Below, one piece after another: positions 36,572 to 64,000 of a stretch of 64,000 nt of DNA. The translations under genes and the position numbers were made by a program. The stretch is from NCBI RefSeq assembly GCF_000003815.2, contig NC_049996.1, positions 17,409,322-17,473,321 on the forward strand, given 5' to 3'. The notes under the pieces were generated by a model that saw only the letters and a list, made by a program, of their open reading frames with translations, was not told where the DNA came from and did not search any database. This DNA is from Branchiostoma floridae (lineage: Eukaryota > Chordata > Leptocardii > Amphioxiformes > Branchiostomatidae). Within the stretch, counting starts at the first letter, position 1, and the number at the start of each line of letters is the position of its first letter.

Positions 36572-36713
36572 ATGTGCCAGACCCCCCGAGCGGCAAGCCG
36601 CGCGTCTCCAACATCACCCATGACTCTCTGACGCTGTCGTGGCAGGAAGTCCCCCGCAAACCCGCAGCCGGCATCACAGCTTACATCGTCGAGATATGGA
36701 AGGCAAGCGAAAG
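36572..36713 (+). CDS. Exon: N-terminal half of fibronectin type III domain
   Basis: The acceptor is TTTACACCAG and the exon begins with two bases of a split Asp codon (phase 1). It encodes PDPPSGKPRVSNIT, then LTLSWQEVP with the conserved B-strand Trp, then the C-strand ITAYIVEIW. The donor AAAG|GTCAGA leaves two bases that join the next exon as Arg. GC content is high against AT-rich surroundings. This is the most upstream exon of the gene that I can recognise by homology. Expected Ig exons upstream are not visible in the window, or are replaced by the alternative first exon at 25951. Confidence 0.88.
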
Positions 36714-42700: not shown

Positions 42701-45700
42701 TATCAGATGGCCTGTCCACTGTGTGCTCCAGGAGGGTCTGCATGGGGGGTTCTGACCATGATTTACACTGAATTCAGAGGAACCCCTATGTATAACGCTA
42801 AATCAAGAAAGGCAATTACGCTAAATTTCGTTGCCTCTTTACGAATTACGTAGATAAGATGGTTTTCCCTACAAATTACGCGGAAAAAAATAGGCTTCCT
42901 ACAACGTAAAAGAGCATGCAGACCCTCCTCCAGTGTGGGGCAGTACCAGGGCTATATTAGGCACCCAGCGGGACCGCACCAGTCATCCTACATATGTACT
43001 GATACGCTACGTCGCAGATAGGGCGGGACGTACCACTTCAAGGGTCACGGGGTGATCCAGCACTTTTTTATCCCCACACCGAAGTGGAGATGAGGTTCTA
43101 TAAACTTAAATCAAAGAAGACATTGCATATGCTGAAGTTGAATCGCAACTTGAGATACTAAAAAAAACTATGACGTTGTATAATTCTTACACAGAATAAG
43201 ACGTCTTAATCTGTTGATTCTTAAAAAGAACCCCCCTCCTTCTGAGCGATAGTGGACCTCCCCCAGACAGACTACTGTCAGATTTGGTTGAATCCGTTCC
43301 CATCAAGTTCAGAGATGTGTTTCATATGAAGGGCGGATCCACCCAGCTGTAAATCACAGGATTTGTTCTGTCACACTTCTACAAGTAAGCTAATTACATT
43401 AACTTCCTTATTCCATTGGATATATTATTTTGCTTGCCATGTTGTGATGCTACCTGTTTGTGGATGCCTCTGTGGCCAGAAATTCTGAACGGAGGTTCAG
43501 TTTCAGAAACACGATCCACTTTCCCTACATACGTCCAAGGTCATAAACTGTCACAGGGACTAGGGAGTCATTTGTGAATCTGTTCCCTCAAGTTTGTAGA
43601 AACAGCACATTATCTATTTTTTTTCAGAAAGTTCTGTAATTTTCGATAAAGAAGATATTTCTTTCTACTTAAAAAACGTAATTGACAGGATCCTAAATGC
43701 TAAGTTTGCTAACAAATTATACCATATTTTAGAAGGTCTTGGATGTAAATCTTAATAGTATGAAAATTTAAAATGCAATGTGATTTAGAGAAAGTTAAGA
43801 CATATCATTAAGACGCACTTGCCAAGGTAAATTCTATATTATGCTTAGTTTTGTCTTAATAAACTTTACTTTTGTTTTAAAAATGATGAGTGACTATATG
43901 TAGATCGATCGATCGACTACAACTTGCTAGCTGCCATGCTAGATAGAAACGCATGGTCAGACATTGTTAATGGCACCTCATATGAGGATGAACTGAACTG
44001 AACTGATATGTACATTGATTTTACTTGACTTGATAATGTATCTAAGAGAAAGGTCGGCCGCCCAAACACAACTAAGAAACTCATTGAGGCCGAACCAGGG
44101 CTGGAGGGGCAAGGGCTACTCTCTGCGATGAAAGACAAGCAGTTCTGGAGGACTAACTTTGTCTGCTCCACCTCACACGAGAATGAATGATGATGATGAT
44201 GATGATAATGTATTTACTTACATTTGTGTGTATTCTAAAGACTAAGTATGAGATGTAGATTATACCTCTACCAATTTACCTTCACCTCTTCCCTCAGGGC
44301 CTGCATGCAGACCAATTTGAGCTTCTCCGGAATGAACAAAGCACCATGCAAAAATTTCCTTTTGTTGTGTCCATTAAGTATTGCTAATCTTTTGGTGGTA
44401 ACATATACTGAAACTTGATTTAAAGTTCTCAGCATGCATGCAGTCAATTACAGCTGCCTTTAACTAAATCTGTGGAGTTCACTGGTTCATCTGCAAATCT
44501 TAATAATATTATAATGTAGTTTGTAAATTGTGATTTGTGTCATTAGATTACAAGAGAAGCCTTCAGCATACCAGGGAAACATCTGTCTGAACTGAACCTG
44601 AAAACGTATAATTAATGTTCCAAAACTTACCTTCCATCTGACAGTCCTGGCTTGTTCCCTTGTCTTCCCCCTGGATGGAAATATGATGAGTCAAATGACG
44701 ACTTCTGGACTGATTGTGAAGTTAAGAAGCTCAGGACAGGATAGTTCACAGTTACTGTAACATGCTTCTGTGTAAGATTTCTCGGGTAGACGCAACCTGA
44801 AGATGCAGTTTCTCTCTTATCCTCTTCTCTTCCTTCAACACAACAAAGAACTGGTCTGAGTCAATGGCGTTTGGTATGAACTGTAAACTAAAGATCCTCA
44901 AGCTTGTTTTTTGTTATTGGATGGGCCGACTACTCACTCTTTGCAGCCAGGGGCTAAATTCCGAGGAACTTACGATAGGCGGGGCTAAATCGCAAGGGTC
45001 TGGAGCGAGCTGCCATTCGGCGCCACTCAGGTGACCTCAATAGGACTGTCGCAAGTGTCTGGAGCGAGCTGCCATTCGGCGCCACTCAGGTGACCTCAAT
45101 ACGACAGTATGAACCTCTTGACAAAGACTTAGAGGAAACTAAAAGTCCTCTTGTCTTCCCTCCAAACGATGGCAGTCTAAGTCTTCTGAACTAAACAGTT
45201 TCTCTGTATGTCATAATCCTTAAAACTTGTCTTGTCCTCTTGTCTTCCCTCTAGACGATCTCGGCCTAAGTCTTTTGAAGAACTAAACAGTGAAGTACCT
45301 CAGGACAAGATGCTGTTTTTGGTGGTTTATCTTTGTCCGACATCCGACAGGAGAATCCATCTTATTGTAATAATCCTTAAAACTTTTCTTGTCCTCTTGT
45401 CTTCCCTGCAGACGATGGCGGTCTGAGTCGATCGTGTTTGGGACAAACTACACGGTAAAGAACCTACAGCCGATGTCTGGGTACATGTTCCGTGTGCGCG
45501 CCAAGAACGCGTACGGCGCCAGCGAACCCGGCGAAGTCACGGATCCCGTCGTCACCAAGGAGAAGAAGACAGGTAGGCAAGACGTCTTGGCTGGAAGATG
45601 AAATATTGTCAGTGATCATCTGTGTTCAATGTAACACACCAGCTTCTGTATCTGTATGTATATTGCCAGTATCTGTATCTGTATCTGTATCTATATAGCC

Positions 45701-46954
45701 GGTATAACCGCCCTTCGGCGTAGCACACCAGCTAAAAATTCACGGGTCTCAGTGGCAAGTGTGCAGATGTTGACACACTGGCAACACCAAATCCGTAGGT
45801 GTTTTTGGCACCTTTAGACAGATTAGCCGTGAGGCTCGGTGGGCGTCACTCCACCGTCATGGGGGCAGGGGCATGGCGAGTATTGAACTCAGGACCTACT
45901 GATTCTGATTCCAACGCTCTAGCCGTTGCGCCACGCAGACACCCGGTCGGGCTGATACCTTGGGTGATACGGAATACACCGTGTTGTATTCTATATGTAT
46001 ATTGCCAGTAGAACAAGTATTTGAATCAATCCAAGGCATGACTATTTCTTGTTCTTGCCTGAGCTGGTTTAAAATACTTAGTTTTTGGTATATCTAACAG
46101 TTTATTTGATAGTCATTTCATACATCATAACTGATGGTAGATAACATCATTTTTTAACCTCATTGATGACATGTTATAAGGATTATATCTATTTCCTTGG
46201 TTCTTGAAAATTTCTGGCAAAATTGAGCAAGCAATCAAGATAAAAACAGACTGCACACGGAGAAAACTTAGGACTATATCTTCACACCTTAAAACTTTCC
46301 TTCAGACTCTGACCTGACCTCTGACCTTTGTTCTTTAGATAGCGACCTCCCCTTCAATCCCAGGCAGGTCAAAGTTCGTAAGGACATTGTGGAGAGGTTT
46401 TATGATGTCAACGAGGTCGTTGGAAGGTGAGTGACAAACCAACTTGTTCTCTATCTGATTCTTCTTACCTAAGATTTAACATCTAACTCAATGGCACAAA
46501 ATTAAGGTTCCATACCATTGAATCAACTTAAGATCAATAGTTTGTCTCTCAGATCTAGATAGAGGTGATCTGATGATTGATGATTTGATCAGTTGATAGA
46601 AGGATTGATTAATTTTTCAGTGATTTATTGATCAATTACTTAACTACTTGATCAATTGATTAACTGACTAATGGACACTGATAGATCTACTGATTCATTA
46701 ATTCTGCAGAAGAAGGTTTGCTATGTTACAGGTATCATTGATTAATTAATTGATTTGTTGATTGATTAGTTGATTGATTGTTTAATTAGTTGATTGATTG
46801 ACAAGTTTATTGATCTATTAATTTATTGACTCTACAGAGGAAGGTTTGGGACCGTGCAGCGGTGTCTGGAGAAGATTGATTGATTGATTGATTGATGGAT
46901 TAATTGATTGACCTACAGAGGAAGGTTTGCCACCGTGCAGCAGTGTCTGGAGAA

Positions 46955-46997
<43 letters not shown>

Positions 46998-47040
46998 CCC
47001 ACAAAGGAAGGTTTGCCACCGTGCAGCGATGTCTGGAGAA

Positions 47041-47074
<34 letters not shown>

Positions 47075-47117
47075 CCTACAGAGGCAGGTTTGCGACCGTG
47101 CAGCAGTGTCTGGAGAA

Positions 47118-47148
<31 letters not shown>

Positions 47149-50100
47149 CCCACAGAGGAAGGTTTGCGACCGTGCAGCGGTGTCTGGAGAAGATTGATTG
47201 ATTGATTGACTGATTGATCCTACAGAGGAAGGTTTGCCACCGTGCAGCGGTGTCTGGAGAAGCTGTCTGGCCGGCTGCTGGCGGCGAGAACTGTCCGCCT
47301 CGACACGGCCGAGCAGCGCGAGAAAATCCTGCGGGAGGTGGAGATGATGCAGCAGCTGCATCATGGGAAACTGCTACAGCTGTACGACGCCTTCGAGCTG
47401 GACAGCAAAATCACCCTGGTGCAGGAGTTGTGAGTCCTCTCACCTTCTCATTTGCATATATGGGAAAATACCAAAAGTGACACTCAGAATACATTTTGCT
47501 CTAGCAAAGGGATTGGGGAGGTATGTACACGTAGGTGGCACTTTTGTGGCGAGAAAACAATCCCAAATGTTAGAAGCTCTGTGGAAGAAGTCTGATCAAA
47601 AATAAAACAGATGAAAGACATTATTTTGGCAGAGTTCCAGCGCTATAGTTCCAGGGTTGGCCGCTGACCTCCGAAAAGAGACCCCTGAACAAGGCCGAAG
47701 TCCCTGACTTCTGGGGTTTGTGCGCTACACGCGCGCAAAGCTGCTACTTCGGGGGAATACGCTATCCCAGTTATAACCAGGCACGGAACACAGGGCATGT
47801 GTATGTGTGCCGGATATATCCAGTTTTGGCAGTTTAAGGGTTAAGACTACCAACCTGATGAAATTATTCTTGGAATATCTCCTCTTCCCCAGCCTGGAAG
47901 GTGGTCCGCTGATGGAGCGTCTTCTGGAGCCTGAGTTCACCCAGACGGAGCGGGAGGCCGCCATCTTCATCCAGCAGGTGTGCGAGGGGCTGCAGTATAT
48001 GCACGGCCAGCAGGTGGCGCACCTGGACCTGCGGCCGGAGAGCGTGATGTGCGCCGACAGGACGGGGTGTAGCATCAAGCTCCGCAACTTCGGCAGCGCG
48101 CGCCGCCTGCATCCGCGGGAAAACATCAGGTTTGGGAAAACTCCATTTTTCACATTTTGTCATCATCTTATGTATTGGTAATAAGTAGCAAGCAACTCTA
48201 GCTCAGCCTTGGTACCATCTGGGTAGTAGTTCACTCCAATATATGTTCGCTTCTGCTACCCGTCTGGGGAACTCACTGTATATTCAAACTTTTTGGTGAT
48301 GTCGTCAGTTGATGAGCGAATCAAGGAATGGGTTCTAGAGCGCTCAGGCACTCCAACACCTGTTCAAACACAGCAATCAGTTATTATAATAACCATTTCA
48401 AGTTTTTTGGGTAGCAGAAGCAAAGTTAACATAACATATGGAAGGTAGCTAACTATTGCCCGGATGGGACCAAAATCTGGACAAGAATTTGAAATTCCAG
48501 GCGTTAGAATCGGAGTGAGTGAATGACAATGTCTGACTGTCCGTATGACTTCTTATCCTGCAGAGTGAAGTTTGAGGCTCCAGAGTTCTGTGCTCCAGAG
48601 GTCGTGAACTTTGGGGTCATCTGGTTTGCTGCTGACATGTGGAGCTTGGGGGTCATGACCTATCTACTGTAAGTTCAAAGTTCAAGTTTCCACCCATTTT
48701 GCATTCTTTTTTAAGTTGCCCGTGGAAGTGCAAGGTAGCTTCACTACGGCTCGTGTTTTTAGCCCGGGTCACCCCTTCTCTTCTCCATAATTGTACGAGG
48801 GGCGTGCAATTAGTAATGGTCCTGACCCATTTCCCATAGCAGGAGATTAATAAACCTTGGCACAGTTATTAGTCTTTCTCTTCATAGGAATCACCCAGAG
48901 TTATGCATTTCTCCCATCGTTTGATGCAGCTCTGGACACCGATTTTGTAGGACACCCCAGGTTGGTCCTCCAACTGATGCCTCATCAATGGCACAAGAGG
49001 GACGACCGAGTCTGGGAGCTGTTTCCACAGACTTCCAGCCACGTTTGAATTCAGGATGCCAGCGTTTTACAAGGTCATATGATGGGGCATCATCACCATA
49101 AGTTTCATTTATTTCATCAAAAGTCTTCTTTGGTGTGCGTCCTTTCAAATACAAAAACCGGATCACTGCGCGACACTCAACTGGTTCCATTTCACACCTG
49201 GTCCATTTCGCACCTGACTAAGTTAAAACACCAATAAATCAGAAACCACAATTAGTTCAGAGCTGTCTTTTGCAACATAACCCATAGAGATATGAATTAT
49301 TACACATACAAAATTTCATTTAGATCAGACAACTGGAAGTGGGTCAGGACCATTACTTATTGCACGCCCCTCGTATCAGGTTCCTTTACGGGCAATCTTT
49401 CTTAATTCATTAATGAGAAATGATGGAAGGTCAAACAGCCAATTTAGCCAGGTGAAATACCTTAACTCATGTTGATCATGTATCTACTACTAGGGCTGGG
49501 TACCGGTACAGAAAATTCAGGTCCAGGTCCGGTTCAGGTCCAAAGGATCAGGTCCAGGTCTGGACCTGAACCTGGACCTGATGCAGTATGACTCATACCA
49601 ATGGTCCATTTCACTACAAAGAAATCTGTTTGGTGGAGTATTAGACTTACACTGACGTTTTAAAATCCTACAACGCTAACTGCACCTGTACGATTGACTG
49701 TAAAACTCTACTCTACTTCACTCTTGTTATTTTCTTCCACCTGCAAGCGTCAAAACGTGTGAATGCCTGACAAAATAATCTGTTAATTTTCTAATCGGTC
49801 CAACATCCGGCCCACCTAATTTTTTCAGGTCCGGTTTTTCTGGACCGGTCCAATAAGAAAAACCGGTTTTGTACCGGTACGCTGTACCGATACCCAGCCC
49901 TATTCACTACGGCTCGTGTTTTTAGCCCGGGTCACCCCTTCTCTTCTCCATAATTGTATCAGGTTCCTTCACGGGCATTCTTTCTTCATTCATTAATGAA
50001 TGAATGAATGACCTTTATTGTACATTTGTGCTCAAACAAGCTAAGTACAGGTCGTAGCGCTAGTGATAAGGTACAATTTTGACAAAAAAAGGTATCTTAT

Positions 50101-53100
50101 CATCTCTACATATGCTAATACAGTCAAGTATGTACAAGTTCAACTTCTTCTCGCTTCTTAAAACAGTTATAAACATAAGGACAAATGGAATCAATAATAT
50201 ATGGCTTATCTAATTGCATGAGAAGTATAAATTTTTCCGTGGTATTCAAGTATCGGAAATTTGGGAACATAAGTTGTATATTTTCAAAAAGGACGTTTCT
50301 TTCGTTTAATGAGACATGATGGAAGGTCAAAATGCCAATTTAGCCAGGTAAAAAATACCTTAACTCAGGTTGATTATGTATCTGCTACCTTATCTGTAAT
50401 GATGTTGTGAGACAAACACCGAGAATGTGAGTGGGTGGTGAAACCAAGTGTACACTGACTCCAGGAAGAGTAGTGTTACGATGTACACTAATGAAAATCT
50501 TAATAAAACAAACAAACAAACAAACACGTACCTCACTTCCATGACAGGCTGTGCGGAGTTTCTCCGTTCGCGGGGAAGTCGGACCTGGCGACCTTACGGA
50601 ACATCATCCGCGGGAACATCGACATGACGCGGGAGGGAGTCAGCAAGAGCTCTGAGGAGGCCAGGGACTTCTTAAGGGGGCTGCTGGCACAGAGCAAGGA
50701 GTAAGACATTCTGTACTTTTCTTAAGATTCACTAAGTCTTAAGAGTTTCCATTGGTGAAGAGGCCAGGGACTTCTTAAGGGGGCTGCTGGCACAGAGCAA
50801 GGAGTAAGACATTCAGACTTTGCTTACGATTCACTAAGTCTTAAGAGTTTCCATTGGTGAAGAGGCCAGGGACTTCTTAAGGGGCCTGCTGGCACAGAGC
50901 AAGGAGTAAGTCTTAGACATTCTGTACTTTTCTTAAGATTGACCAAGAGTTCCCACTGGTGAACCATGATGTGGACTAACAAACTATGGAACCCTCTCAA
51001 TGACAAATGTTTTCGTTTTGTATACAATCTTCAAGCTTTCAAAGCCATTTTCCCCCTTATGTCCCAGCATGATACTTTCCACCATCCATCAACTAAGTTC
51101 ATTGCATAATAAAAGTGGTCAAAAGGCCTTGCATTGAACAAAACCCAATAAAGAAAGTAGGCAATTGTGTTAAAGGTTCTGTGCGAAGACCAAATTTGGG
51201 GACACGCTTAGCAGACTGCAGGATCACTCCAGGCTATGTTTTTGAAGAACTGAATCTGTATAGGGACACCCTTAGTAGACTGTTGGTTAACGCTAGTCTG
51301 TGTGTTTAAAGAACTGAATATACAACTGTAGGGACACCCTTAGTAGACTACAGGTTAACCCTAGTCTGTGTGTTTAAAGAACTGGATATACAACTGTAGG
51401 GACACCCTTAGTAGACTACAGGTTAACCCTAGTCTGTGTGTTTAAAGAACTGAATATACAACTGTAGGGACACCCTTAGTAGACTACAGGTTAACCCTAG
51501 TCTGTGTGTTTAAAGAACTGAATATACAACTGTAGGGACACCCTTAGTAGACCTCAGGTTAACCCTAGTCTGTGTGTTTGAAGAACTGAATCTGTATAGA
51601 GACACCCTTAGTAGACTGCAGGTTAACCCTAGTCTGTGTGTTTGAAGAACTGAATCTGTATAGGGACACCCTTAGTAGACTGCTTGTTAACCCTAGTCTG
51701 TGTGTTTAAAGAACTGAATATACAACTGTAGGGACACCCTTAGTAGACTACAGGTTAACCCTAGTCTGTGTGTTTGAAGAACTGAATCTGTATAGGGACA
51801 CCCTTAGTAGACTGCAGGTTAACCCTAGTCTGTGTGTTTGAAGAACTGAATCGGTATAGGGACAACCTTAGTAGACTGCTGGTTAACCCTAGTCTGTGTG
51901 TTTAAAGAACTGAATATACAACTGTAGGGACACCTTTAGTAGACTGCAGGTTAACCCTAGTCTGTGTGTTTGAAGAACTGAATCTGTATAGGGACACCCT
52001 TAGTAGACTGCAGGTTAACCCTAGTCTGTGTGTTTGCAGGGCGAGGTACACCATCGAACAGTGCCTCCAGCACAGGTGGCTACAGGTGAGACATTGACAT
52101 TCTTACATGTTCAAGTATCTCTGTCCAGTCAATGACTATAATCCTTTTATATTTACCTGGAGAACAATTAGTGTAAAATTATTACATTCAGCAGGAAAGT
52201 CTTGATCATTGCTCCCTCTTGCCAAAACAATTCAGTATGTTAGACTGAGTTGAAAAATATCAATGGGAAGATCAACTTAAAAACAGTCTTAAGGCAAAGT
52301 CTGTACCCTGGTACACACAGTTTCAGGGACTTATTATAAGCAAATAGTCTGTATCTTTATCTGTAAAGCCTTTCAAAGTAGCGCCAGCTTCACAGGCACG
52401 CATCGCAGCAGCTGGTTATATTACACCAGACCTATCACACCCAACTTTTACACAATCTAAAATTCTAACTGTAAGCCCTGTTTAGAGCTATCAAATGCTG
52501 AAGATGCTGCTACAGTACTTTGTAGTAACTGTCCCCTACAAAGAGTTAAGAAATAGCTCAACACTTTCTCCCCCTTCCTTCAACACAGAGGGACAGGAAG
52601 AGCCCAGGGAACTACGTCGTGCCTAAACAGAACATCAAGGACTTCATGGCAAGGAGAAAATGGCAGGTAAAATGAACATCTTATTCTTCAAATGCCTCTG
52701 AAAGATCAACAGGTGTTTTGCCACCTGTTGTAAAGCTAGAAGTAATATGTTTCTGACTAAGAACCCCTTGGGGAAGGCCATTGACAGTCTAGGAAACAGA
52801 GACTGGTTTTCTCCTTGGTGCTGAATTGCTGTAACAAGTTTTCTGTATTTCTATTGCATGTGCTGTATTCCTTATTACCTGACTTGTATATGAACATGTA
52901 TGGTAGCAACAATGTCATTGAAAAGAAGCAAAGTCTTGCTATATGGTCTGCTCTATAGTGCTGTGCAACTTCTTACTGTATACCAATTGTTATGTTATGT
53001 GTATGAACAATGATTATTATAGCAGCATTTCAGTTGAAATGAAGTGAAGTCTTGCAAGATGTATGTTGTTGAAATGTTAGGGCATTGCAGATTTTCTAAA

Positions 53101-56100: not shown

Positions 56101-59100
56101 CTGTCAAGAAGCAGCCAGTGAGAGCGCCGCTGGTCCACTCCAAGTCGGTTCCTGATGAGCTGAGTCAGATCACGCAGAAGATCCGAGGGGTGACGACAAA
56201 AGGCGGCGCCGAGAAACCAACTCCCGTCAAACCTACTCCCACTCCTACATTACGTAAATCTGCCTCGCTGGACCTCCCACGGATAACCGTGATCGAAAAA
56301 CCGTCTCTGCAACCGATCAGGGAGAAGCCGGAAACCCCGCCGTCTACACCGCCAAAGCCGAAGGTACACGTCGTTGCTGACCGCATGAAAGTGTCGCCAA
56401 GCAAAGAGGCCGAAACGAAAGCACCAGAAAAGTTCAAACCTCTCTTCGTGCGCAAAGCGGAACCACCGAGCCAACTGAGGATTCCTCCTCACGTAAAGAA
56501 GCAGGAAGAGAAAAAAGAGCGTCCGGAGCTGAGCGAAGCACCTTCGGTCCTACAGCGTGCCAACCTGGCCATCTTCAAACAGGCCAAGCCTCTCAAGTTT
56601 AAGAAAACTCCATCCATGGAGGAGGCTGAGAGAGTGGAGCAACCCAAAGAGCGACGAAGGGCGCCGTTTGCCGAGTTGAGAAAGGTGCCCTCTGTGGAGA
56701 GAAGACAAGAGGAGCTAGAACAGAAAACTAAGGTAGAAAAGAGAGTATCTGTCGGTACAGAGAAACAGAAGGTGGTAGAGAAAAGACCGCCAACAGAGGC
56801 GGGGAAGGAACTGGGCGTGGGGAAGGGACCAGACGCAGCTGTGCCAAAGCTCGAGAAGGCTGCACCTGAGGTGAAGGAGAAAAAGGTGGATGAAAGAAAG
56901 GCTCCTGAAGTGGCAAGAAGAAAGAAAGGGGTGGAAGAAGTTAAGAAGGCTCCAGAGGTTCCTAAGATGGAGATTGCAGCTCCTCAAGAGGCAAAGAGAA
57001 GTCCAGAAGCTCCACGGAGGGAGGCAGGGTCTACCCCAGCCATCTCCACTGTGCCTGCAGAAGTAAGGAGATCCACGGAGTTGGTGTCTGTGGTGATCAC
57101 GGCTTCAGCACAGGTGAGGGACAGTAAAATCATCTGTGTTATTATCTTGGAACCTGCTTGATACAAGAGTACTTGTTCTTTATAAAGTTGGCTTAAAATT
57201 TGTCAAACAGTAGTAGTAGTAAGAGTGAAATTCATTAAGTAACCTTCATTGTCAATTTTTGCCCTTTCTTTGCAACGTTTTATCTCATTTTACTGTAGAT
57301 CTATATAAAGTTCACAGCAACTTTGACAAATTAAGGCAACTTCTAATAGGACGTAAGCATAATATGAATGAACTTAGGAATCATGCATTCTACTGTCACA
57401 AAAAGTCATAAACATCAATTGTAATATCATCAGCTTAAAAAAGGTTATGTCGCAACTCTAATCTAATACATTGAGGTGTCCTTTGCACACCCTTACACAG
57501 CCTGAAGAAGTGCTCCCAGCTGTATCACAGGTGACGGAGAGAGTAGTAGTGCCGCCTCAAGCAAGACCGGCTTCCATCGCTCCCGCTGTTCCAGTTGCCA
57601 TGGCAACAGAGAAACCAGCTGAGGAGAAGGCTAGGGAGCCAGTACCGAAACCAGTTCCTCCCAAGAGAGAGGTGGTGAAACCATCTCCATTATTATTAGG
57701 GAAGGTTGAAGAAGTTGAGAAAGTCTCTCCTAAGACATCCCCAGTGGCTAAGATGTCTCCACCAGCTAAGATGGTTCCTGAGAGGACCCCAACACCTCCT
57801 CCGTCCCCTAAGAAGTCACCCGTAGCTAAGATGGCACCCGGTTCACCCCAACCACCTGTGGAACAGCCGACTCCCCCATCGGCTCAAGTGGTTGCATCCA
57901 TACAGAAGGAACCAGAACCAGCGCCAGCTACGAGGAAGGAACCACCCGAGGTGAGTAGGGGTGTAAACCAGTCATTTCTGAATGAGGCATCCAACATTAA
58001 CTGATCATACAGTTTCTTAAAAAATAACAGAAGATATGAAGTTATATGTAAGGAAGGTCCGGTCAATTTGGAAATTATAAAGAAGAAGTTTCAAAAGCAT
58101 GTTTTGTGATTTTTGACCCAGTTCCGTTAACTTTCACAGCCAGCGCCCAAGCCGAAGCCTCCGGCCTTCTCCCGTGTGGCGGTCATGGAGGTCGCCAAGA
58201 GGACAGGGGAGGTCAGCAGCTTCTCATTGGCCACATATTCTGTTTCCGTGGCAACTGTTTCTGTGGCAACTGTTTCCATGGCAACTGTTACTAGGACAAC
58301 CTTGCTTCCATGGCAACTGTTTCCATGGCGACTGTTTCCAGGGCAACTCTGTTTCCATGGCAATTCTATTTCTATCACAACCGACTCCATAAGAAATTTT
58401 GTAAGGAACGTAGGAAAATAGTTGAAAATGTTGCCATGGTAACAGGTGTCAGCTGTTCCCCTGTGCTTCTGTCTTCAGCCCTACCTTTAGTTAGTACTAT
58501 ATCTATTACAGTAATTGTTGTGTACACACTGCACCACCTCCCCCTCTCAGCTTCATGCTGCTATTAAAGTACTTACACCTGTTACTCTGTGTAACTGTTC
58601 ATCCCGTCTCACAAGTTCCTTTCTCTCCTTTCTTGTAGAATTTCCACCTGTAGTTAGAAAGTACTAACTTTGCTTTCCTTTGTGCTACAGCTGAAAACTT
58701 TGTCCACTCTTTTGTCGTATATCTTATTTAATTCCTGACAAGTAGCATTTTCTCCCTCTCACTGTACATTTGTATTGTCTTGCTTTCCCACATTGTAAAA
58801 TGTATCATGTCCCAATGTTCAACACTTCTCTACTATGAAATGTTTTGCAAAATCAATGTATCAATTTAGTGAAATATAGTTGCCTTTGAAGTATTGGTTT
58901 CATTCTTATATGTGTCCTTACTCCAAATTACTTAAAGTCACCAAATGTGAAAAAATTGGCATGCCTAACATTCAAATCACCTACCAAACATCAGGATGGT
59001 GTGTAGAAAAGAGAAAAATGACATGAACTTGTAGAACATTCTTAAAACCATGCATAAAGTTTATCTCCCTTTCTTCCATCTAAAGTGCATTTTTCCTGAG

Positions 59101-62100
59101 TTGAAATCTGACAGTGACTCTACCCCAGCTTCAGTGAAGTGTTCTGGTTTACAAAGAAATAAACTTGTGACCAGATTTTGATGACCTTGACCCCTGCAGG
59201 TCACAATTATGGCTGAAGAGGTCAAGAAACCGGTGGCCAAAATAGAACCTGTGCCCCAGGAGGCGGAGGTCAGAGGTCGCACCATAGAGGAGGTGGTCGC
59301 AACCATCCCGGTGAGTGTGTGTCAAGATGGAGCAGTTGTTTTATTCTTTTTTACTTTTACCTACAATATCTTGAAATCCTCAACTTGGAAGTTCTGCTGT
59401 TAGCAGAACGAAACTACCAAGAGAATACTATTAACTGTTACATTCAATCTCTTGGTTCTTGCATCTAAAACTAAGCTGACTAATCTCCAAGCAGATCCTA
59501 CGGTAGCATAAGATAGTATCAAAAGCTGGCAGAGGAGTGAAGCCGGCTTAGGAGTGTGTTTGGCTACATGGCAAATGGACACCTCTTGGCTGACTACACT
59601 ACTTGGCTAGTTTGGTACTATCTTATTCCATCGTAGGATCTGCTTGGAGATTAAAACTGACCTGGATTTCCAAAAATCAGCATGAAAACAGAGTCTGAGG
59701 GAAAAGCCTGTGCCTTCGTCTACACAGTTTCAGGTAGTGATTGATGATGATATACCTTATATCCATGTCACATTATCCACGATCTTCGGGCGTATCGATG
59801 GAAGATCGGCCATATTTAAGATCGACAGAGGGTTGCGCGTATTTTTCACCTGAAAACCGTCCCTGTCACATATAAGCCATACTTTGTACCTTGTAAAATT
59901 GTTGCGCAATAAAGTTATAATTATAAGCGAGGCTCGCATAATCGTCGTCCGATCGATTTTCGCCAAATTCGACAGGGGTATTAGGCAGACACTCTATGCA
60001 TAGCTGTGCATGGGAAGGTAGTGTAATTGGACTTACCTGTAACTTGGGGTGACCATGAAATGTCTGACGTGTTGCGAAATCTCTAAACCATGGGACTGAT
60101 GGATGGACGGATGGATGTAGCTTTGTATAAAATAAAATGTAACAACAGGAATAAAAGGCAAGAAAATGTAGACTAACCTGTAGCTTGGAGTGAAATGTCC
60201 ATCTCGCCAACACAAATGATTCTCCCCCTGCAGGAGGGGAAGCGTCCGCTGGCCAGGATGACGTCGCTGAAGCGGCGTGGATCGACCGGCTCGGACATGT
60301 CGGGCGTCTCGTCTCCCGCCGACAGCGAATCAGAGGAGTACTATAGCGGCACCTTCTCCGAGTCAGGTACACACCTGTAAAACATAACACACCTGTTATA
60401 TAACACCTGTATAACACACCTGTATAACACAACACACCTGTAAAACACACCACACCTGTAAACACAACACACCTGTATGTCACAGTGAATCAGAGGAGTA
60501 CTATAGTGGCACCTTCTCCGAGTCAGGTAACACACCTGTAAAACACACCTGTATATCACACCTGTATGTCACAGTGAATCAGAGGAGTACAACAGTGGCA
60601 CATTCTCCGAGTCAGGTAACACACCTGTATAACACACCTGTATTACGCCATTTATCGTTTTTACCGTTCTGTTCGCAGACACGGAGAGCAGTTGGTACTT
60701 CACAGCCAGCGAGGAAGTTACGCCGTTTATCATTTTTATGGTTATAATAAAGGATTGTTTATTTATGTTTTGATCCGAGGAGATTGTTTGATCCGACCAC
60801 ACACTGACCCGCCACGGTCAGCTTTAGTTAATTAACTCCAGGCAGGATAGTCCGGGGCATCATTCCCGGACCGCCTTCAATGCATGCGGACACAGAGAGT
60901 GGATGTTACGCTAGTTATCGTTTTTACCGTTCTGTTCGCAGACACGGAGAGCAGTTCCTACTTCACAGCTGGGGAGGATGAAGAGAACACAGCTCCAGTG
61001 TTCCTGAAGAGGATGCTGCGACAGACAGTCCAGGAGGGGAGCACCACCAGGTTCGAGGTCGTCGTCATCGGACAACCCAAACCTGCAGGTACGTCTGGTA
61101 CCACATATAGTCTGGTACGCAGTCAGGTACCGTAGTCAGACCCCAAAACCAAACCTGAAGGTACGTCTGGTACCATAACCATAGGTACCTAAGTCCAGTA
61201 CTGCAGCCAGGTACCATAGCATTAGGACCGGCTGCATATATTACCATAACCAGATACTAGTTAGACAACAAACTGAAACGTAAGATACTGTACTGTAGTC
61301 AGGTACTACCACAGTCAGGTACTGCAGCCCAAGTACCAAGGACCAGTTGCATAGTCAAGTACCTCTGCTTTGCACCATAACCAGGTACTGTAGGCAAGTA
61401 GGCATATATAGTCAGGCTGTGGAGACTCCAGATGAAAGGTTGCTGAAAAATTTACAGGCCACAGCACTTCATTCAAAATGTACAAATTTAGCGGGCGCTC
61501 AAGATGAAAACCTTTCTTATGGGGCATCCTTTAGGGTGCTTTCAGGTTGGGTTCTGTCATGCATCAAATCTCCTTCTTCCTTCCCTCTCTCCAGTGATGT
61601 GGCTGAGGAACAACTTCCCAATTAAGGAATCGGAGGATTTCCAGTTTCTGCAAGAAGGAAACATCTACTGTCTGGTGTTGCGGGAGGCGTACCCGGAGGA
61701 TGCCGGGCTCTACACCTGCCGAGCCATCAACTCTGTAGACGTTGTTTCCTGCAGCGCTGAGCTACGCGTCGAGGAAGGTACGGTGCTTACTGTTTGATTC
61801 ATTTGTTTTAGTGGGGACTTATTTTTACAGTAGGAGAGTAAAGGAGGCTTTTATGGTGTTCCATGCTCTGCATTGAAACAAATTTGGTAGATATACAATG
61901 GAAACAGACATCCCGCAGAGCAGACTTACGCATCGAGGAACGTCCTTAACGTACAGTTATTTTTGTGGGGAATTTCGTGGTAGAGAGGAAAGGAGATTTG
62001 ATGGTGATTTAAGTTTATGATGGAGAATTATACTGTACATGTAGTAAATTATATATAATCATAAAAACGTGCGTTTGCAGAGTGTTTTGGGGTAGAGAGG

Positions 62101-64000
62101 TAGCTGCAAAAACTTCTCAAAAATAGAAATAAAACCACTCGGTCTGTGAACATTTCAAGGTGTAATGCACTTTTTTCTAAACTGTAGCTTCCATACAAAT
62201 CTGCTAAAGCAGAGTGACTTGTTCTGTGGTTTGGAAAGGGGTTGCAGCAGTAGTGTGAAAAATGCACTTTTGCTGTCATCACTGTGCAGGAGACAAGTTA
62301 GAACCAGTCACAAGGCATGTATGATACTGTAAATGCATTTTCGCGGGGATTTAAGTTCGCAGTAGCGGGAAAAAAGGCCTTTTTGCGGTGGTTTTAAGTT
62401 TGCAGTAGCACCATGCATGCACTGTAGTCTCTTACTGCCATGGAAAAATGTTCACGGTGGTTTTAAGTTCGCGGTGAAACGGCCACCATGAAAACCGCGC
62501 GCATTAAACCACCGCGAAAGTTTCTGCATTTACAATAAGCTTAACTGTGGTGGAACTGTATCCATAGGCAATGTCCTTGGTGCTGAAATGTAGTGCTTGT
62601 TGTACATAAAATACAGCCTCCCAAACACATCTCCGTAGCAAAACATTATCAATAGTGCACCCCTGCTGCTAAGAGCCTCCAGAGAGCACTCAGCTCCAGA
62701 AAGAGAAGATCTGGTGATGTAAGGTTAAACTTGTATGTTAAAGGTTAAATGTTAAAGGTTGAATGTTAGAGGTTGATGCTGTTGTCCATAGAGATGACAG
62801 ATAAGGAAGGAGAGCCGATGGTCCATCCGGAGTTCCAGCAGAAAATCTACATGTGGTGATGTGAGGTTAAAGGTTGAATGTTAAAGGTTAAAGTTTGATG
62901 TTGTTGTCCACAGAGCTGACAGACGAGGAAGGAGAGCCCATGGTCCATCCAGAGTTCCAGCAGAAGATCAAGCCGTGCGAGGTCACCGAGGATGACCCTG
63001 CCAGGATGGACTGTAAGGTCACAGGTGTGCCAGAACCTGAGGTCACCTGGTGAGACAATCCTTCCACCTTTACCTGTCACCTGTCTGTATCTAGTAGTAG
63101 TATCCGTTATTTGACTTTTACTGCTGCTGGGATCCCTGACACAGTTAGGCAGCAGTTCTTCTATGCAGCTCTGTCCAGCGGGCTCACCCAAGCAATTATG
63201 TAGCCAATATAATGCAGCTCTTTTGTGTAAAGTTACTCTAACAAATCAGCTTTGCAGTCACGCACTATACATATATAGGTGCCAGATAACCAATGTCGCC
63301 CCCAGTCAGCATTGTTCCCCCCGTTACAGTTGCTCAAATGAACAGAGACTCCTTCATTGCATTGATTTTTGTTTCCCAAAAAGATTTTTGCGAAGGTACA
63401 AGGATGGAGTAGAGATCAAGCAGAACCCAGTTCCTGTTTGTTGTTTGTCTGCTTTGTTGATTTTTTGTTTGTTTGTTTATTTCTGCAGGTACAAGGATGG
63501 GGTGGAGATCACGCATGACCCTGAGTACCAGTTCCTGTTTGTTGTTTGTCTGTTTTGTTGATTTTTTGTTTGTTTATTTCTGCAGGTACAAGGATGGGGT
63601 GGAGATCACGCAGGACCCAGAGTACCAGTTCCTGTTTGTTGTTTGTCTGTTTTGTTGATTACTTGTTTGTTTATTTCTCCTGTTTGTTGTTTGTTTTGTT
63701 GATTTTTTGTTTGTTTGTTTATTTCTACAGGTACAAGGATGGAGTGGAGATCACGCAGGACCCAGAGTACCAGTTCCTGTTTGTTGTTTGTCTGTTTTGT
63801 TGATTACTTGTTTGTTTATTTCTGCAGGTACAAGGATGGGGTGGAGATCACGCAGGACCCAGAGTACCAGTTCCTGTTTGTTGTTTGTCTGTTTTGTTTA
63901 TTACTTGTTTGTTTATTTCTGCAGGTACAAGGACGGAGTAGAGATCACGCAGGACCCAGAGTACCAGTTCCTGTTTGAAGATGAGGAGTCGATGTGCCTG
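36572..64000 (+). CDS. SPEG/obscurin (UNC-89)-like giant muscle pseudokinase gene, 18 exons, 3' end beyond window
   Basis: Exons are 36572-36713, 45412-45572, 46339-46426, 47226-47429, 47893-48129, 48564-48668, 50548-50700, 52040-52085, 52589-52666, 53976-57113, 57501-57950, 58140-58211, 59200-59310, 60234-60366, 60942-61088, 61595-61777, 62914-63049 and 63925-64000. All introns are GT-AG and all junctions keep one frame. Domain order is FN3, kinase, basic tail, Pro/Lys/Ser-rich linker of about 1,300 residues, Ig, Ig (partial). Known SPEG and UNC-89/obscurin proteins have kinase 1, a long linker, Ig-FN3 and kinase 2, so a second kinase probably lies beyond 64000. FN3 directly before the kinase resembles titin and UNC-89 more than vertebrate SPEG, so the exact orthologue is open. 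Likely role: sarcomeric scaffold or signalling. Family assignment is confident; catalytic inactivity is inferred from missing residues. Confidence 0.88.
36975..37062 (+). mobile_element. SINE tail fragment in first intron
   Basis: CTCGCCTCTCTAGTTGTTTC then CACACCGACCCTGCTGAGTA match the region between and after the 12840 copies. Confidence 0.5.
37875..39170 (+). repeat. Intronic satellite-like array, about 107-128 bp x 10-11
   Basis: CAGTAGCATCTCCA landmarks at 37890, 38144, 38264, 38374, 38491, 38602, 38711, 38839 and 38963, with AGAGCTGTCTTCTCA, CAGCTCCAAGCACACATAAC and CTCAAGAACTCATAGTGCAT. It occupies 1.3 kb of the intron 36714-45411. Confidence 0.9.
39760..39875. mobile_element. Fragment of the 1716 inverted-repeat family
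   Basis: Contains TTATCTGAAACGTCTGACTG, TTTCCAAAATCATATCCAGT and GTATTGCTGTTTGG. It lies in the intron 36714-45411 of the kinase gene. Confidence 0.6.
39880..41460. other. Intronic DNA, no further gene
   Basis: Contains a GGTGGCCGCTAA-rich patch (39905-40055) related to the 4637 repeat. Otherwise unique. Confidence 0.5.
41470..41830 (+). repeat. Short degenerate minisatellite CACCCCTATGTTC
   Basis: Many units of about 15 bp (ACACCCCTATGTTCTG) with insertions; spurious ORFs cross it. Confidence 0.88.
42728..42930 (-). mobile_element. Dispersed TACGTAGGG-rich repeat, copy 2 (inverted)
   Basis: Reverse complement of the 11003 element: CAATTACGCTAAATTTCGTT, TAGATAAGATGGTTTTCCCT and AAAAGAGCATGCAGACCCTC. 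It lies in a kinase-gene intron. Confidence 0.82.
42940..44990. other. Intronic DNA, no further gene
   Basis: AT-rich. A minus-strand ORF at 43917-44171 is repeat-like. A (GAT)n run lies at 44186-44208. Confidence 0.45.
44997..45110 (+). repeat. 59-bp direct repeat x 2
   Basis: GTCTGGAGCGAGCTGCCATT starts at about 44997 and 45056, each running through CGGCGCCACTCAGGTGACCT then CAATA. Confidence 0.92.
45145..45440 (+). repeat. Exon-border repeat at the second FN3 exon (acceptor copies)
   Basis: The intron end plus exon start is present three times: true at 45412, copies at 45255 (acceptor CCCTCTAG intact) and 45166 (AG mutated to AA). Shared core: CCTCTTGTCTTCCCT then ACGATGGC.GTCT.AGTC. Confidence 0.85.
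45412..45572 (+). CDS. Exon: C-terminal half of FN3 domain
   Basis: Starts after CTTCCCTGCAG. The protein continues RWRSESIVFGTNYTVKNLQP, then SGYMFRVRAKNAYGASEP, the F-strand and FG-loop signature of FN3 (Y-x-F-R-V-x-A-x-N-x-x-G). The donor is ACAG|GTAGGC, ending in phase 1. The start of this exon has two degraded upstream copies (about 45166 and 45255). Only the 45412 acceptor keeps the FN3 fold and the frame. Confidence 0.9.
45715..45945 (-). mobile_element. tRNA-derived SINE in intron
   Basis: The minus strand reads GGCGCAACGGCTAGAGCGTT, CAGTAGGTCCTGAGTTCAAT and ACTCGCCATGCCCCTGCCCC, a tRNA-like head, with the body to about 45715. It lies between the second FN3 exon and the kinase-start exon. 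Confidence 0.75.
46339..46426 (+). CDS. Exon: FN3-kinase linker and first strand of kinase domain
   Basis: Acceptor TTGTTCTTTAG. Encodes DSDLPFNPRQVKVRKD, then IVERFYDVNEVVGR, the typical entry into titin/MLCK-type kinase domains (F-Y-D-x-x-E-x-x-G-x-G). The donor GGAAG|GTGAGT splits an Arg codon inside the glycine-rich loop. Splitting the loop over two exons explains why the next exon's start is so short before the loop ends. Confidence 0.9.
46700..47262 (+). repeat. Exon-border repeat at kinase N-lobe exon (five acceptor copies)
   Basis: Intron end (CCTACAG) plus the first 37 nt of the exon (AGGAAGGTTTGCCACCGTGC...GGAGAAG) is repeated at 46838, 46919, 47005, 47082 and 47156 before the true exon at 47226, spaced 70-86 bp and joined by (ATTG)n. 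The 47005 copy has lost its AG. Each usable copy would read EKID then stop. Confidence 0.95.
47226..47429 (+). CDS. Exon: kinase N-lobe (glycine loop to hinge)
   Basis: Joined to the previous exon it completes the glycine loop GRGRFATV. The beta3 segment reads LLAARTVRL: Arg (47287-47289) stands where the ATP-anchoring Lys of VAxK is expected. Helix C contains ILREVEMMQQLHHGKLLQLY with the conserved Glu, and the exon ends at the hinge, LVQEF. The first 37 nt of this exon occur five more times just upstream (46838, 46919, 47005, 47082, 47156). Only this last copy continues into kinase sequence, so its acceptor is taken as the true one. Confidence 0.92.
47893..48129 (+). CDS. Exon: kinase catalytic loop region, degenerate
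   Basis: Acceptor CTTCCCCAG. Encodes FLEGGPLMERLLEPEF, helix E (FIQQVCEGLQYMHGQQVAHL), then HLDLRPES at 48020-48043 in place of HRDLKPEN: the catalytic Asp stays, the metal-binding Asn is Ser. NFG at 48086-48094 replaces DFG, losing the Mg-binding Asp. Titin kinase is known to carry EFG at this place, so such change is familiar in the family. Donor CATCAG|GTTTGG. Confidence 0.92.
48564..48668 (+). CDS. Exon: kinase activation segment and helix F
   Basis: Acceptor TTATCCTGCAG. Encodes VKFEAPEFCAPEVVNFG with an intact APE motif, then DMWSLGVMTYLL, the structural D-x-W-S-x-G of helix F. The donor is CTACT|GTAAGT. Structural residues of the C-lobe are kept while catalytic ones are lost, as expected of a folded pseudokinase. 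Confidence 0.92.
48796..49373 (-). mobile_element. Internally deleted mariner element
   Basis: A 578-bp element with inverted ends CGAGGGGCGTGCAATTAGTA / TACTTATTGCACGCCCCTCG continuing to about 36 bp, flanked by TA on both sides (48794-48795, 49374-49375). The interior encodes on the minus strand the N-terminal helix-turn-helix part of a mariner transposase; the DDE catalytic part is missing. Confidence 0.92.
48891..49190 (-). pseudogene. Mariner transposase, N-terminal fragment
   Basis: The frame starts MEPVECRAVIRFLYLKGRTP and contains TFDEINETYGDDAPSYDLVK, RWHPEFKRG, then GRPSCAIDE: the helix-turn-helix DNA-binding region and the GRP linker typical of mariner/SETMAR transposases. After that the frame passes into the far terminal region, so the catalytic domain has been deleted. 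It cannot act by itself. Confidence 0.88.
49491..49902. mobile_element. MITE with TAGGGCTGGGTACCGGTAC ends
   Basis: Ends TAGGGCTGGGTACCGGTAC and GTACCGATACCCAGCCCTA are inverted; the interior has GGTCCAGGTC repeats and their complements. Flanks TCTACTAC / TTCACTAC agree at 6 of 8 bases, so an 8-bp hAT-like duplication is possible. A right-end fragment lies at 20558 and a shortened relative at 53660-53790. Confidence 0.75.
49999..50305 (-). mobile_element. LINE 3' fragment (related to the 32.7 kb LINE)
   Basis: On the minus strand a short ORF2 end (50124-50330 frame; YLNTTEKFILLMQLDKPYII, VYNCFKKREE) is followed by a 3' UTR and GTACAATAAAGGTCATTCAT with a (CATT)n tail. TTAATGA flanks both ends as target duplication. 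Copy A of the duplication shows the unoccupied site. Confidence 0.87.
50548..50700 (+). CDS. Exon: kinase C-lobe helices G-H
   Basis: Acceptor CATGACAG. Encodes LCGVSPFAGKSDLATLRNII, then SSEEARDFLRGLLAQSKE, matching the usual G-x-S-P-F and A-x-D-F-x-x-x-L-L elements. The donor AAGGA|GTAAGA is the first of three near-identical donors (50701, 50804, 50906). Using either later donor would read an immediate TAA stop, so the first is chosen. Confidence 0.91.
50650..50910 (+). repeat. Exon-border repeat at kinase C-lobe exon (three donors)
   Basis: The last 44 nt of the exon (GAGGCCAGGGACTTCTTAAG...CAAGGA) plus donor GTAAG and about 55 bp of intron repeat at 102-103 bp spacing: donors at 50701 (true), 50804 and 50906. 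Confidence 0.95.
51170..52039 (+). repeat. 64-68-bp minisatellite ending on the 52040 acceptor
   Basis: About 12 units of GGGACACCCTTAGTAGACTG, CAGGTTAACCCTAGTCTGTG and TGTTTGAAGAACTGAATCTG (type A, about 64 bp) or TGTTTAAAGAACTGAATATA (type B, 68 bp). The final unit passes TGTGTGTTTG directly into the true acceptor CAG. Confidence 0.95.
52040..52085 (+). CDS. Exon: kinase helix I (46 nt)
   Basis: Acceptor TGTGTTTGCAG abuts the end of a long minisatellite array. Encodes ARYTIEQCLQHRWLQ, the standard R-x-T-x-x-x-x-L-x-H-x-W-L closing the kinase fold. The donor CTACAG|GTGAGA ends in phase 0. Confidence 0.9.
52589..52666 (+). CDS. Exon: post-kinase basic tail
   Basis: Acceptor CTTCAACACAG. Encodes RDRKSPGNYVVPKQNIKDFM then ARRKWQ. 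A tail of the form K-x-x-x-x-R-R-(K/R)-W-Q follows the kinase in the MLCK/titin/twitchin family, where the region autoinhibits and can bind calmodulin. That function here is inference. The donor TGGCAG|GTAAAA is phase 0. Confidence 0.88.
53397..53432 (+). CDS. Possible alternative micro-exon (12 codons, phase 0)
   Basis: The stretch has an acceptor (CTTCCCACAG) and a donor (ACTAAG|GTATCG) 36 nt apart and encodes EHFRGLMSVWTK without a stop. It lies in the intron between two phase-0 exons (ending 52666, starting 53976), so inclusion would add 12 residues right after the basic tail without changing frame. There is no homology support, and a chance occurrence is possible. Confidence 0.3.
53660..53790. 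mobile_element. Shortened relative of the 49491 MITE
   Basis: Contains GCGGTGGGTACAGAAAATTC, AGGTTCAGTATCAGTCCAGC and CAGGTACCCATCGCTAG, parallel to both ends of the 49491 element. It lies in the intron before the large linker exon. Confidence 0.6.
53976..57113 (+). CDS. Exon: giant linker exon, 1,046 codons, Pro/Lys/Ser-rich
   Basis: Acceptor CTCCCACCAG, donor GCACAG|GTGAGG, both phase 0. An ATG at 53928 lies in the intron and is not the start. The exon continues the kinase tail (KMRAMKQLEAQG) into low-complexity, probably disordered sequence rich in Pro, Lys, Ser and Thr, with a charged Glu/Lys end. About ten copies of a short basic-Ser-x-Ser-hydrophobic-acidic motif punctuate it (54060, 54120, 54405, 54771, 55965, 56022, 56137, 56253, 56601, 56679). 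A QKPE(T/I) repeat lies near 55153-55220. Known SPEG and UNC-89 have comparable inter-kinase linkers. GC content and codon use contrast clearly with flanking introns. Confidence 0.93.
57501..57950 (+). CDS. Exon: linker continuation, Pro-rich (150 codons)
   Basis: Acceptor CCCTTACACAG and donor CCCGAG|GTGAGT are both phase 0. Encodes PEEVLPAVSQVTERVVVPPQ and continues Pro/Lys/Val-rich, with repeated SP(V/P)AKM blocks (MSPPAKMVPERTPTPPPSPK, KKSPVAKMAPGSP). No globular domain is visible. Ser-Pro and Thr-Pro pairs are many, so proline-directed phosphorylation or SH3 binding is conceivable but not shown. Confidence 0.88.
58140..58211 (+). CDS. Exon: linker, 24 codons
   Basis: Acceptor AACTTTCACAG, donor GGGGAG|GTCAGC, phase 0 at both ends. 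Encodes PAPKPKPPAFSRVAVMEVAK then RTGE. It is phase-symmetric and short, so it could be skipped without shifting frame. The downstream intron begins with a GTTTCCATGGCAACT-type minisatellite. Confidence 0.75.
58240..58375 (+). repeat. 15-bp minisatellite GTTTCCATGGCAACT
   Basis: About eight imperfect units with changes such as GTTTCTGTGGCAACT, just after the donor of exon 58140-58211. Spurious ORFs cross it on both strands. Confidence 0.93.
58570..59060. other. Intronic DNA, nothing recognised
   Basis: AT-rich intron body; no coding or repeat structure seen. Confidence 0.5.
59200..59310 (+). CDS. Exon: linker, 37 codons
   Basis: Acceptor GACCCCTGCAG, donor ATCCCG|GTGAGT, phase 0 at both ends. 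Encodes VTIMAEEVKKPVAKIEPVPQ, then EAEVRGRTIEEVVATIP. It is a charged, Val/Pro-rich linker with no recognised domain, and a phase-symmetric cassette. Confidence 0.8.
59481..59653. mobile_element. MITE family C, copy 2 (intronic)
   Basis: Inverted ends of about 37 bp: TAATCTCCAAGCAGATCCTA and TAGGATCTGCTTGGAGATTA, with the inner AAAGCTGGCAGAGGAGTGAA shared inverted with 31798-31820. It lies in the intron 59311-60233. Confidence 0.86.
60234..60366 (+). CDS. Exon: linker end, basic then acidic Ser-rich
   Basis: Acceptor CCCCCTGCAG. Encodes EGKRPLARMTSLKRRGSTGS, then DMSGVSSPADSESEEYYSGT and FSES. Basic RMTSLKRRGS fits a basophilic kinase site; the following SESEEYYS is acidic. The donor GAGTCAG|GTACAC (phase 1) is the first of three copies (60367, 60527, 60616). 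Extending to a later donor meets a stop after GTHL. Confidence 0.87.
60320..60625 (+). repeat. Exon-border repeat at linker-end exon (three donors)
   Basis: The last 42 nt of exon 60234-60366 (GAATCAGAGGAGTACTATAG, CACCTTCTCCGAGTCAG) with the GT recur at 60485-60526 and 60574-60615, separated by an ACACCTGTA(AA/TA)CAC minisatellite. The copies' donors are GTAACA; the true one is GTACAC. Confidence 0.93.
60650..60718 (+). repeat. Extra copy of the start of exon 60942 (acceptor copy)
   Basis: TTATCGTTTTTACCGTTCTG then TTCGCAG and ACACGGAGAGCAGTT.CTACT at 60652-60710 duplicates 60915-60972, spacing 263 bp. Read from the copy, the frame gives DTESSWYFTASEEV and later a stop. Confidence 0.92.
60942..61088 (+). 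CDS. Exon: acidic spacer and N-terminal half of first Ig (I-set) domain
   Basis: Acceptor GTTCTGTTCGCAG. Encodes DTESSSYFTAGEDEENTAPV, then FLKRMLRQTVQEGSTTRFEV and VVIGQPKP, the A to B strands of an I-set domain. The usual B-strand Cys is replaced by Val (RFEVVVIG). The donor CCTGCAG|GTACGT is phase 1. A mutated copy of the exon start lies upstream (60679). Confidence 0.88.
61089..61594. other. Intron with GGTACC/CAGGTAC-rich minisatellite
   Basis: At 61085-61390 short units such as AGTCAGGTACC and CTGGTACCATA recur. They resemble the donor that begins the intron (GCAG|GTACGTCTGGTACC), so this too may derive from the exon border. Confidence 0.6.
61595..61777 (+). CDS. Exon: C-terminal half of first Ig domain
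   Basis: Acceptor CCTCTCTCCAG. Encodes VMWLRNNFPIKESEDFQFLQ with the core Trp, then LREAYPEDAGLYTCRAINS, the D-x-G-x-Y-x-C-x-A-x-N signature of I-set Ig domains, ending ELRVEE. The donor GAGGAAG|GTACGG is phase 1. F-strand Cys is present although its B-strand partner is missing, so the domain probably lacks the canonical disulphide, which is common in cytoplasmic muscle Ig domains. Confidence 0.92.
62325..62535. mobile_element. MITE family A, copy 3 (intronic)
   Basis: Same landmarks as the 9580 and 35061 copies, inserted in the intron between the two halves of the Ig region (61778-62913). It carries the most intact CGCGG-type motifs of the three. Confidence 0.92.
62760..62855 (+). repeat. 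Extra copy of the start of exon 62914 (acceptor copy)
   Basis: GTTGATGCTGTTGTCCATAG followed by 58 nt matching the exon (ATGACAGATAAGGAAGGAGA, TGGTCCATCC.GAGTTCCAGC) starts at 62792, 122 bp before the true exon. Read through, the frame reaches stop after KIYMW. Confidence 0.93.
62914..63049 (+). CDS. Exon: start of second Ig (I-set) domain
   Basis: Acceptor GTTGTCCACAG. Encodes ELTDEEGEPMVHPEFQQKIK, then EDDPARMDCKVTGVPEPEVT and the first bases of Trp, i.e. the A to C strands of an I-set domain with B-strand Cys (MDCKVTG). The donor CACCTG|GTGAGA is phase 2. A partial copy of the exon start at 62792 ends in a stop. Confidence 0.9.
63396..63977 (+). repeat. Exon-border repeat at second-Ig exon (five acceptor copies)
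   Basis: A unit of about 97 bp holds TGTTTGTTTATTTCTGCAG plus 53 nt of exon (GTACAAGGATGGGGTGGAGA ... CAGTTCCTGTTTG). Copies start at 63396 (degenerate), 63489, 63585, 63731 and 63828; the true exon is 63925. Every copy reads FLFVVCLFC and stop. Confidence 0.96.
63925..64000 (+). CDS. Exon: second Ig domain continued (cut by window edge)
   Basis: Acceptor TATTTCTGCAG. Completes Trp and encodes YKDGVEITQDPEYQFLFEDE, then ESMCL, the C to E strands of the Ig fold. This is the sixth and last copy of a tandem series of exon starts (63396, 63489, 63585, 63731, 63828, 63925). Only this one continues into Ig sequence, the others running into a TGA after FVVCLFC. Confidence 0.9.

Follow-up and report, generated by a model that had tools for sequence, protein, structure and literature searches.

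Why should one gene carry, beside so many of its exons, incomplete tandem copies of the exons' own borders, and does such copying favor splice borders over other intron DNA? The question arises from a 64,000-nucleotide stretch of the Branchiostoma floridae genome (C18:17409322-17473321), hereafter the window, in whose coordinates all positions are given unless stated otherwise. The initial annotation of the window reported that seven exon borders of one gene, at 45412, 47226, 50700, 60366, 60942, 62914, and 63925, recur in the adjoining introns as tandem units. We followed these arrays through the whole gene and compared their placement with chance, with each other, and with other parts of the genome.

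A large muscle-type gene and its copied borders

The arrays belong to one very large gene of muscle type with Ig, FN3, and kinase domains, which extends beyond the window to approximately 97.3 kb; the following 40 kb were added for the full gene model. Between 45412 and 64000, 17 exons join into a single open frame of 1840 codons that codes for part of an FN3 domain (under the curated cut-off), a kinase, and I-set domains. The whole-gene model comprises 51 exons with 101 splice borders and a stop at 97343; the exons beyond the window are predictions, supported by phase and Pfam domains, and add further Ig and FN3 domains as well as a second and a partial third kinase. On reading, we take the gene to resemble SPEG/obscurin. 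The solved kinase sequences nearest to the first kinase are MYLK4, twitchin, and titin. Active kinases carry an HRD/KPEN-like motif and DFG; the first kinase (48020-48100) has HLDLRPES and NFG, the second has DFG, and based on these motif departures the first may be a candidate pseudokinase. A possible optional mini-exon at 53397-53435, between 52666 and 53976, was excluded from the gene model.

Each of the 33 borders of the 17-exon model was aligned to as much as 1200 bp of flanking sequence per side. All seven borders named above have clear copies, with scores of 88.5-196 against a reversed-flank background of 15-25 (and a single value of 38, beside 63925), and most other borders have none (Table 1). 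The multiple recurrence described in the initial annotation is therefore present, with a range of one to six copies per border in one assembly rather than one to five, and the exonic part at these borders spans 18-56 nt and not the 37-58 nt originally given. Two weaker copied borders had escaped notice: donor 61088 (copy at 61146-61175) and perhaps donor 61777, whose alignment score of 31 falls under our later threshold. It had also been pointed out that acceptor copies lie only upstream and donor copies only downstream, which is true but uninformative, because the copy joined to the remaining exon is the true copy by definition.

Table 1. Exons and tandem arrays of the gene located in the window
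Feature	Position	Strand	Remarks
Exon, first half of FN3 domain by eye	36572..36713	+	Phase matches 45412; begins the 8.7-kb intron preceding the first copied border
Array at acceptor 45412	45145..45429	+	Two older border copies (45145, 45209), exon part 18 nt
First kinase domain exons (46339, 47226, 47893, 48564, 50548, 52040, 52589)	46339..52666	+	
Array at acceptor 47226	46604..47262	+	Six border copies with (GATT)n, exon part 37 nt
Array at donor 50700	50653..50963	+	Two border copies, unit ~103, exon part 48 nt
Minisatellite adjoining acceptor 52040 exactly	51191..52039	+	64-68-bp unit
3.1-kb linker-coding exon	53976..57113	+	Both borders without arrays
Array at donor 60366	60322..60646	+	Two border copies, exon part 45 nt
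Array at acceptor 60942	60643..60978	+	Single copy at 60643-60715, exon part 37 nt
I-set domain exons, running past the window	60942..64000	+	
Array at donor 61088	61074..61175	+	Weak copy, exon part 15 nt
Array at acceptor 62914	62742..62969	+	Single copy, exon part 56 nt
Array at acceptor 63925	63384..63977	+	Five border copies, intron part TTTG-rich, exon part 53 nt

Acceptor 52040 is indeed adjoined by a minisatellite, as had been observed, the array stopping at the last intron base. The exon start has no conspicuous copy in it (score 16 vs 20 for the best of 100 other exon ends). The unit of a so-called mirage minisatellite spans the border and holds the splice site; those of the border-crossing arrays do so, and that of the 52040 array does not. 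A large 109-123-bp array inside the 8.7-kb intron (37839-39157) is an ordinary interior array with no recognizable copy of either adjoining exon end; a dispersed-repeat piece (45734-45900, in the intron after 45572) occurs in at least 39 further places at 95-98 percent identity; and the ends of 48810-49380 look by eye like inverted copies of one another, as in a DNA transposon.

Based on single alignments, tandem arrays with intronic copies of the border cross 27 of the 101 splice borders of the gene, about a quarter, comprising 15 acceptors and 12 donors. These are divided between the window part (9/34, including the exon running past 64000) and the continuation (18/67). A looser count, in which a merged array crosses if its span does, gives 29 splice borders (15 acceptors and 14 donors) plus the stop-codon end at 97343, and includes the coding-repeat array at 83949 and the stop-codon array at 97343. 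The strict count requires a single alignment to cross the border by 8 nt on both sides and excludes the stop codon; 75745, 94556, and 97343 are thereby removed and the crossing arrays reduced from 30 to 27 of 40.

Each unit combines the splice site with 11-75 nt of exon and with intron DNA. The largest arrays, beyond the window, contain approximately 20 copies of donor 73425, 11 of 70990, and 8 of 67144. The exonic share of the copies (mean 0.32) falls short of that predicted by uniform placement (KS p 0.0014, 28 arrays, 83949 and 97343 excluded), and trimming of alignment ends by divergence may bear on it. At 83919-84194 (L010-L011) a 72-bp coding repeat (APQSSRNRSPSQ-like) also extends across acceptor 83949 and so includes 30 intron nt. 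Some copies were themselves called exons by the exon finder (71419-71460, 74018-74119, 88551, 88809, and 89735), and we read these as false calls rather than real exons.

Placement of the arrays in the gene and the genome

The expectation under chance was obtained by dropping a unit of given length at random on the introns and borders of this gene. The suggestion that the arrays favor borders beyond chance is borne out for this gene, with 27 of 40 arrays crossing a splice border by the strict count where 6.9 are expected (P 1.1e-12). The window part, defined by arrays starting before 64000, contributes 8 of 15 (2.5 expected, P 9.6e-4), and the continuation, which the initial annotation did not cover, 19 of 25 (4.4 expected, P 1.5e-10). 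When the coding-repeat and stop-codon arrays are left out, the strict figure becomes 26 of 38 against 6.6. The loose count (30/40) lies far over expectation at every score cut tried and reaches 13 of 15 (2.2 expected) among the strongest arrays (score >=150, with 83949 and 97343 included). When whole arrays were randomly placed with exons kept intact, 2000 trials gave on average 13.9 crossing arrays and never more than 22, compared with 30/36 observed (loose).

Old border copies might stay visible through the conservation of the exon, and we therefore also masked the true exons. The adjoining exon end then outscores all of 100 others in 19 of 31 arrays (5.3 expected, P 2.4e-8; array 97344-97629 skipped), and in 18 of 31 when the weak case 95243 (23 vs 19) is removed (P 1.9e-7). 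The possibility that border duplications merely stay recognizable for longer than intron ones, owing to the conserved true exon, is thus refuted as the main cause of the excess, and we regard it as very unlikely. Many single-copy cases are a short stretch around the border, as old duplications would be, and such a bias may inflate the weak array class, but the strongest arrays almost all cross a border by the loose count given above, and the intron half of the copies (pooled identity to the true border 0.925) is no more diverged than the exon half (0.89).

Circular shifting of the arrays (loose) produced a mean of 31.0 crossed borders against 30 observed and hence no excess, a count that is uninformative because shifted arrays may cover whole exons; scored by arrays crossing, the shift gave 17.8, with a maximum of 25, against 30/36 observed. 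Duplicated bases do not peak at the borders, coverage being 0.28-0.32 at 1-10 nt and 0.41-0.57 at 601-1000 nt. The signal is the anchoring of arrays on borders, not base coverage. The initial annotation offered replication slippage or repair primed at R-loops as processes that might favor borders. GC content and GC skew were rejected as markers of copied borders: exon-side GC is similar at copied and uncopied borders, and intron-side GC is higher at copied donors (0.47 vs 0.38), a difference that lies within the arrays themselves.

Arrays that do not cross a border number 10 in 49.6 kb of intron, three of them ending within 6 nt of one, and their density matches that of random genome DNA, in which 21 regions of 10 kb (204 kb without N) contain 47 arrays. 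The border arrays are therefore the raised class. With arrays also present off the borders, at random-DNA density, the earlier proposal that selection tolerates growth only at borders is not upheld.

Of the 77 borders predicted in the same random regions, 4 are crossed by an array, where 2.5 are expected. Three of these crossings are doubtful (L017 is part of a coding repeat, the sites of L020 are weak, and L032 has a better chain on the other strand), and a border in L033 was crossed in a first pass and uncrossed with the retrained model. Exons of the random sample include false ones, the exon finder making 49 calls on reversed sequence vs 78, a control that over-counts as it keeps composition. 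A 111-bp array in one random region (L030, 844-1638 of that region) copies an exon end several times and is likely a mirage in another gene, coiled-coil-like by eye. In three TCP1-type chaperonin genes none of the 53 predicted borders is crossed, the one weak array lying in an intron, and a 4.6-kb stretch of another Ig gene, in which six Ig exons were matched by Pfam, has no array. The gene differs from the random regions (29/101, loose on both sides; P 6e-5) and from the chaperonin genes (loose count; P 1.4e-6). Border preference as a genome-wide rule is thus unsupported in this small sample; rather, the excess appears specific to this gene or locus, as judged from a few regions with predicted exons.

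These comparisons bear on two further explanations. The first is that tandem duplications arise at random, those that break exons are purged by selection, and the gene was noticed as the extreme of the distribution. The occurrence of mirages in other genes, the random-region figures, and the fact that the gene was singled out for its array density agree with this; however, the continuation lay outside that choice and has the same strong excess, which strains the explanation, and non-crossing arrays stand at genome background with only border arrays in excess. We consider it quite unlikely. The second is that the gene is a bystander in a region of Ig genes close to the C18 end (17.45-17.51 of 18.55 Mb) with a high rate of tandem duplication. 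All border arrays counted fall in one stretch, and among the 150 Ig matches listed many map to the + strand of C18 (16.83-17.32 Mb). If the locus were a general hot spot, however, arrays inside introns should also be more numerous, and these stay at the background level, making this account unlikely, if slightly less so than the first.

Evolution of the copies and choice of splice site

Changes private to one copy amount to 28/1155, 24/1119, and 29/1125 at codon positions 1, 2, and 3 and 63/2317 in the intron (2.4, 2.1, 2.6, and 2.7 percent). This flat distribution gives no sign of the copies being translated or protected, and the copies decay like neutral DNA. By contrast, the true exon differs from all copies at 3/213, 4/209, and 12/211 sites (position 3 vs 1 and 2, P 0.011), mostly at third positions, and is therefore constrained. 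Variants common to several copies are likewise biased to third positions (7/132, 7/132, and 24/129, P 8e-5), so most of them seem to have passed through a coding state; apparently the array was seeded from the exon on more than one occasion, or the two exchange sequence. Shared variants on the intron side (14/265) are below the third-position level, and simple whole-unit budding predicts otherwise. Divergence grows with distance from the exon in eight of nine arrays of at least three copies (sign test P 0.02), three of which are significant alone.

All differences between copies and true exon taken together show a third-position excess (78/1273, 67/1239, and 274/1243 by codon position). Coding constraint on the copies was rejected as its source, given the flat copy singletons. 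The excess reaches its maximum at third positions where the true exon carries A/T or CpG, and this points to the exon lineage as the place of change. By our reasoning, its size still goes beyond what simple neutral decay explains.

The splice dinucleotides are largely retained: 28 of the 30 acceptor copies still have AG, and 59 of the 63 donor copies have GT (stop-codon array excluded). With a matrix trained on this same gene, and with the arrays at 83949 and 97343 left out, 51 of 87 decoy splice sites score at least as high as the true site. Use of a decoy would lead to an in-frame stop in 86 cases and to a frameshift in the remaining one, and the correct protein therefore needs the innermost pair of sites. 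From the sequence we infer that splicing would pick this pair. The retained dinucleotides and strong decoys might also be expected if the copies were functional, as alternative exons or as selected decoys that tune splicing, but with copy-specific changes flat across codon positions and equal to the intron, and nearly every extension meeting a stop, such a role is highly improbable.

The least probable explanation is an artefact of assembly, with collapsed or expanded haplotypes. Some 58-bp units at 67144 are identical, and a globin mirage is said to look aberrantly assembled in the draft genome (PMC3087553, in the passages available), but the PGBD5 repeats were confirmed by new data according to those of PMC3902484. 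The copies here have diverged from the true border in both halves and differ from one another, so assembly error is unlikely for most arrays, the exact copy numbers resting on one assembly.

The explanation that we favor, and consider fairly probable, is that tandem duplications straddling a border are far commoner in this gene than intron-internal ones and grow into minisatellites. Short duplications would arise across the exon-intron border and then expand, new copies budding mainly beside the exon by slippage, template switching, or unequal exchange. Splicing would use only the copy joined to the remaining exon, and the extra copies would leave with the intron, allowing arrays to persist neutrally. 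The border preference would then be mutational and specific to this gene or locus. If so, borders, or polymerase pausing or co-transcriptional splicing at them, would be sites of duplication, through which introns could lengthen and new ones be gained. A bolder form, which we advance tentatively as the less probable of the two, is a splice-border-directed copying, active in some genes only, that repeatedly draws short border pieces from a transcribed gene and adds them beside the exon. Introns would in that case grow outward from exons and preserve past synonymous states of the exon as fossils, and the spliceosome would ignore dozens of decoys of equal strength through the innermost site pair. 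The arrays are a natural splicing experiment, in which one must be chosen from up to approximately 20 similar donors in a row.

Comparison with known mirage minisatellites

The initial annotation likened the arrays to the mirage minisatellites of amphioxus, and they do look like those in print, as far as passages of PMC3087553 and PMC3902484 describe them; the same passages are the source of the statements below. Mirages are on record for Adh3, two globin genes, TnC, and PGBD5 (PMC3087553, PMC3902484), and similar structures at two further loci are attributed to papers on retinol dehydrogenase and presenilin (PMC3087553). They are reported not to disturb splicing, and their copy number varies between haplotypes in BflGb6 and between sequence versions in PGBD5 (PMC3087553, PMC3902484). 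The phenomenon is considered possibly general and its mechanism unclear (PMC3087553).

As in the present gene, the tandem units of the Adh3 mirages (Canestro et al. 2002, NAR, as cited in PMC3087553 and PMC3902484) span the exon-intron border. They are 10-72 bp long and unstable in length, with somatic instability shown there and splicing reported as unaffected. The B. floridae globins have both versions found here, acceptor-side in BflGb6 and donor-side in BflGb9, with units of approximately 150-160 bp; the BflGb6 mirage has six and three units in two haplotypes, 81-100 percent identical (PMC3087553). The lancelet PGBD5 gene also resembles ours in having repeats, of 60 and 108 bp, that overlap or adjoin splice sites and vary in copy number between two sequence versions (PMC3902484).

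The differences concern extent and placement. The globin genes have one affected border each (PMC3087553), compared with 27-29 of 101 in this gene, together with a test of border preference. PGBD5 has repeats in two places, and placement statistics are absent from the passages of PMC3902484, unlike here. Intron gain by tandem duplication (PMC4974935 and PMC2891723, in part) shares with our arrays an intragenic tandem duplication tied to splice sites, but it yields a new intron, of which we saw no sign in this gene. In the open-licence literature searched, outside which the original Adh paper falls, we found neither a mirage count over a large gene nor a placement test. Each array is thus of the known mirage kind, and the new part is their gene-wide spread and their preference for borders.
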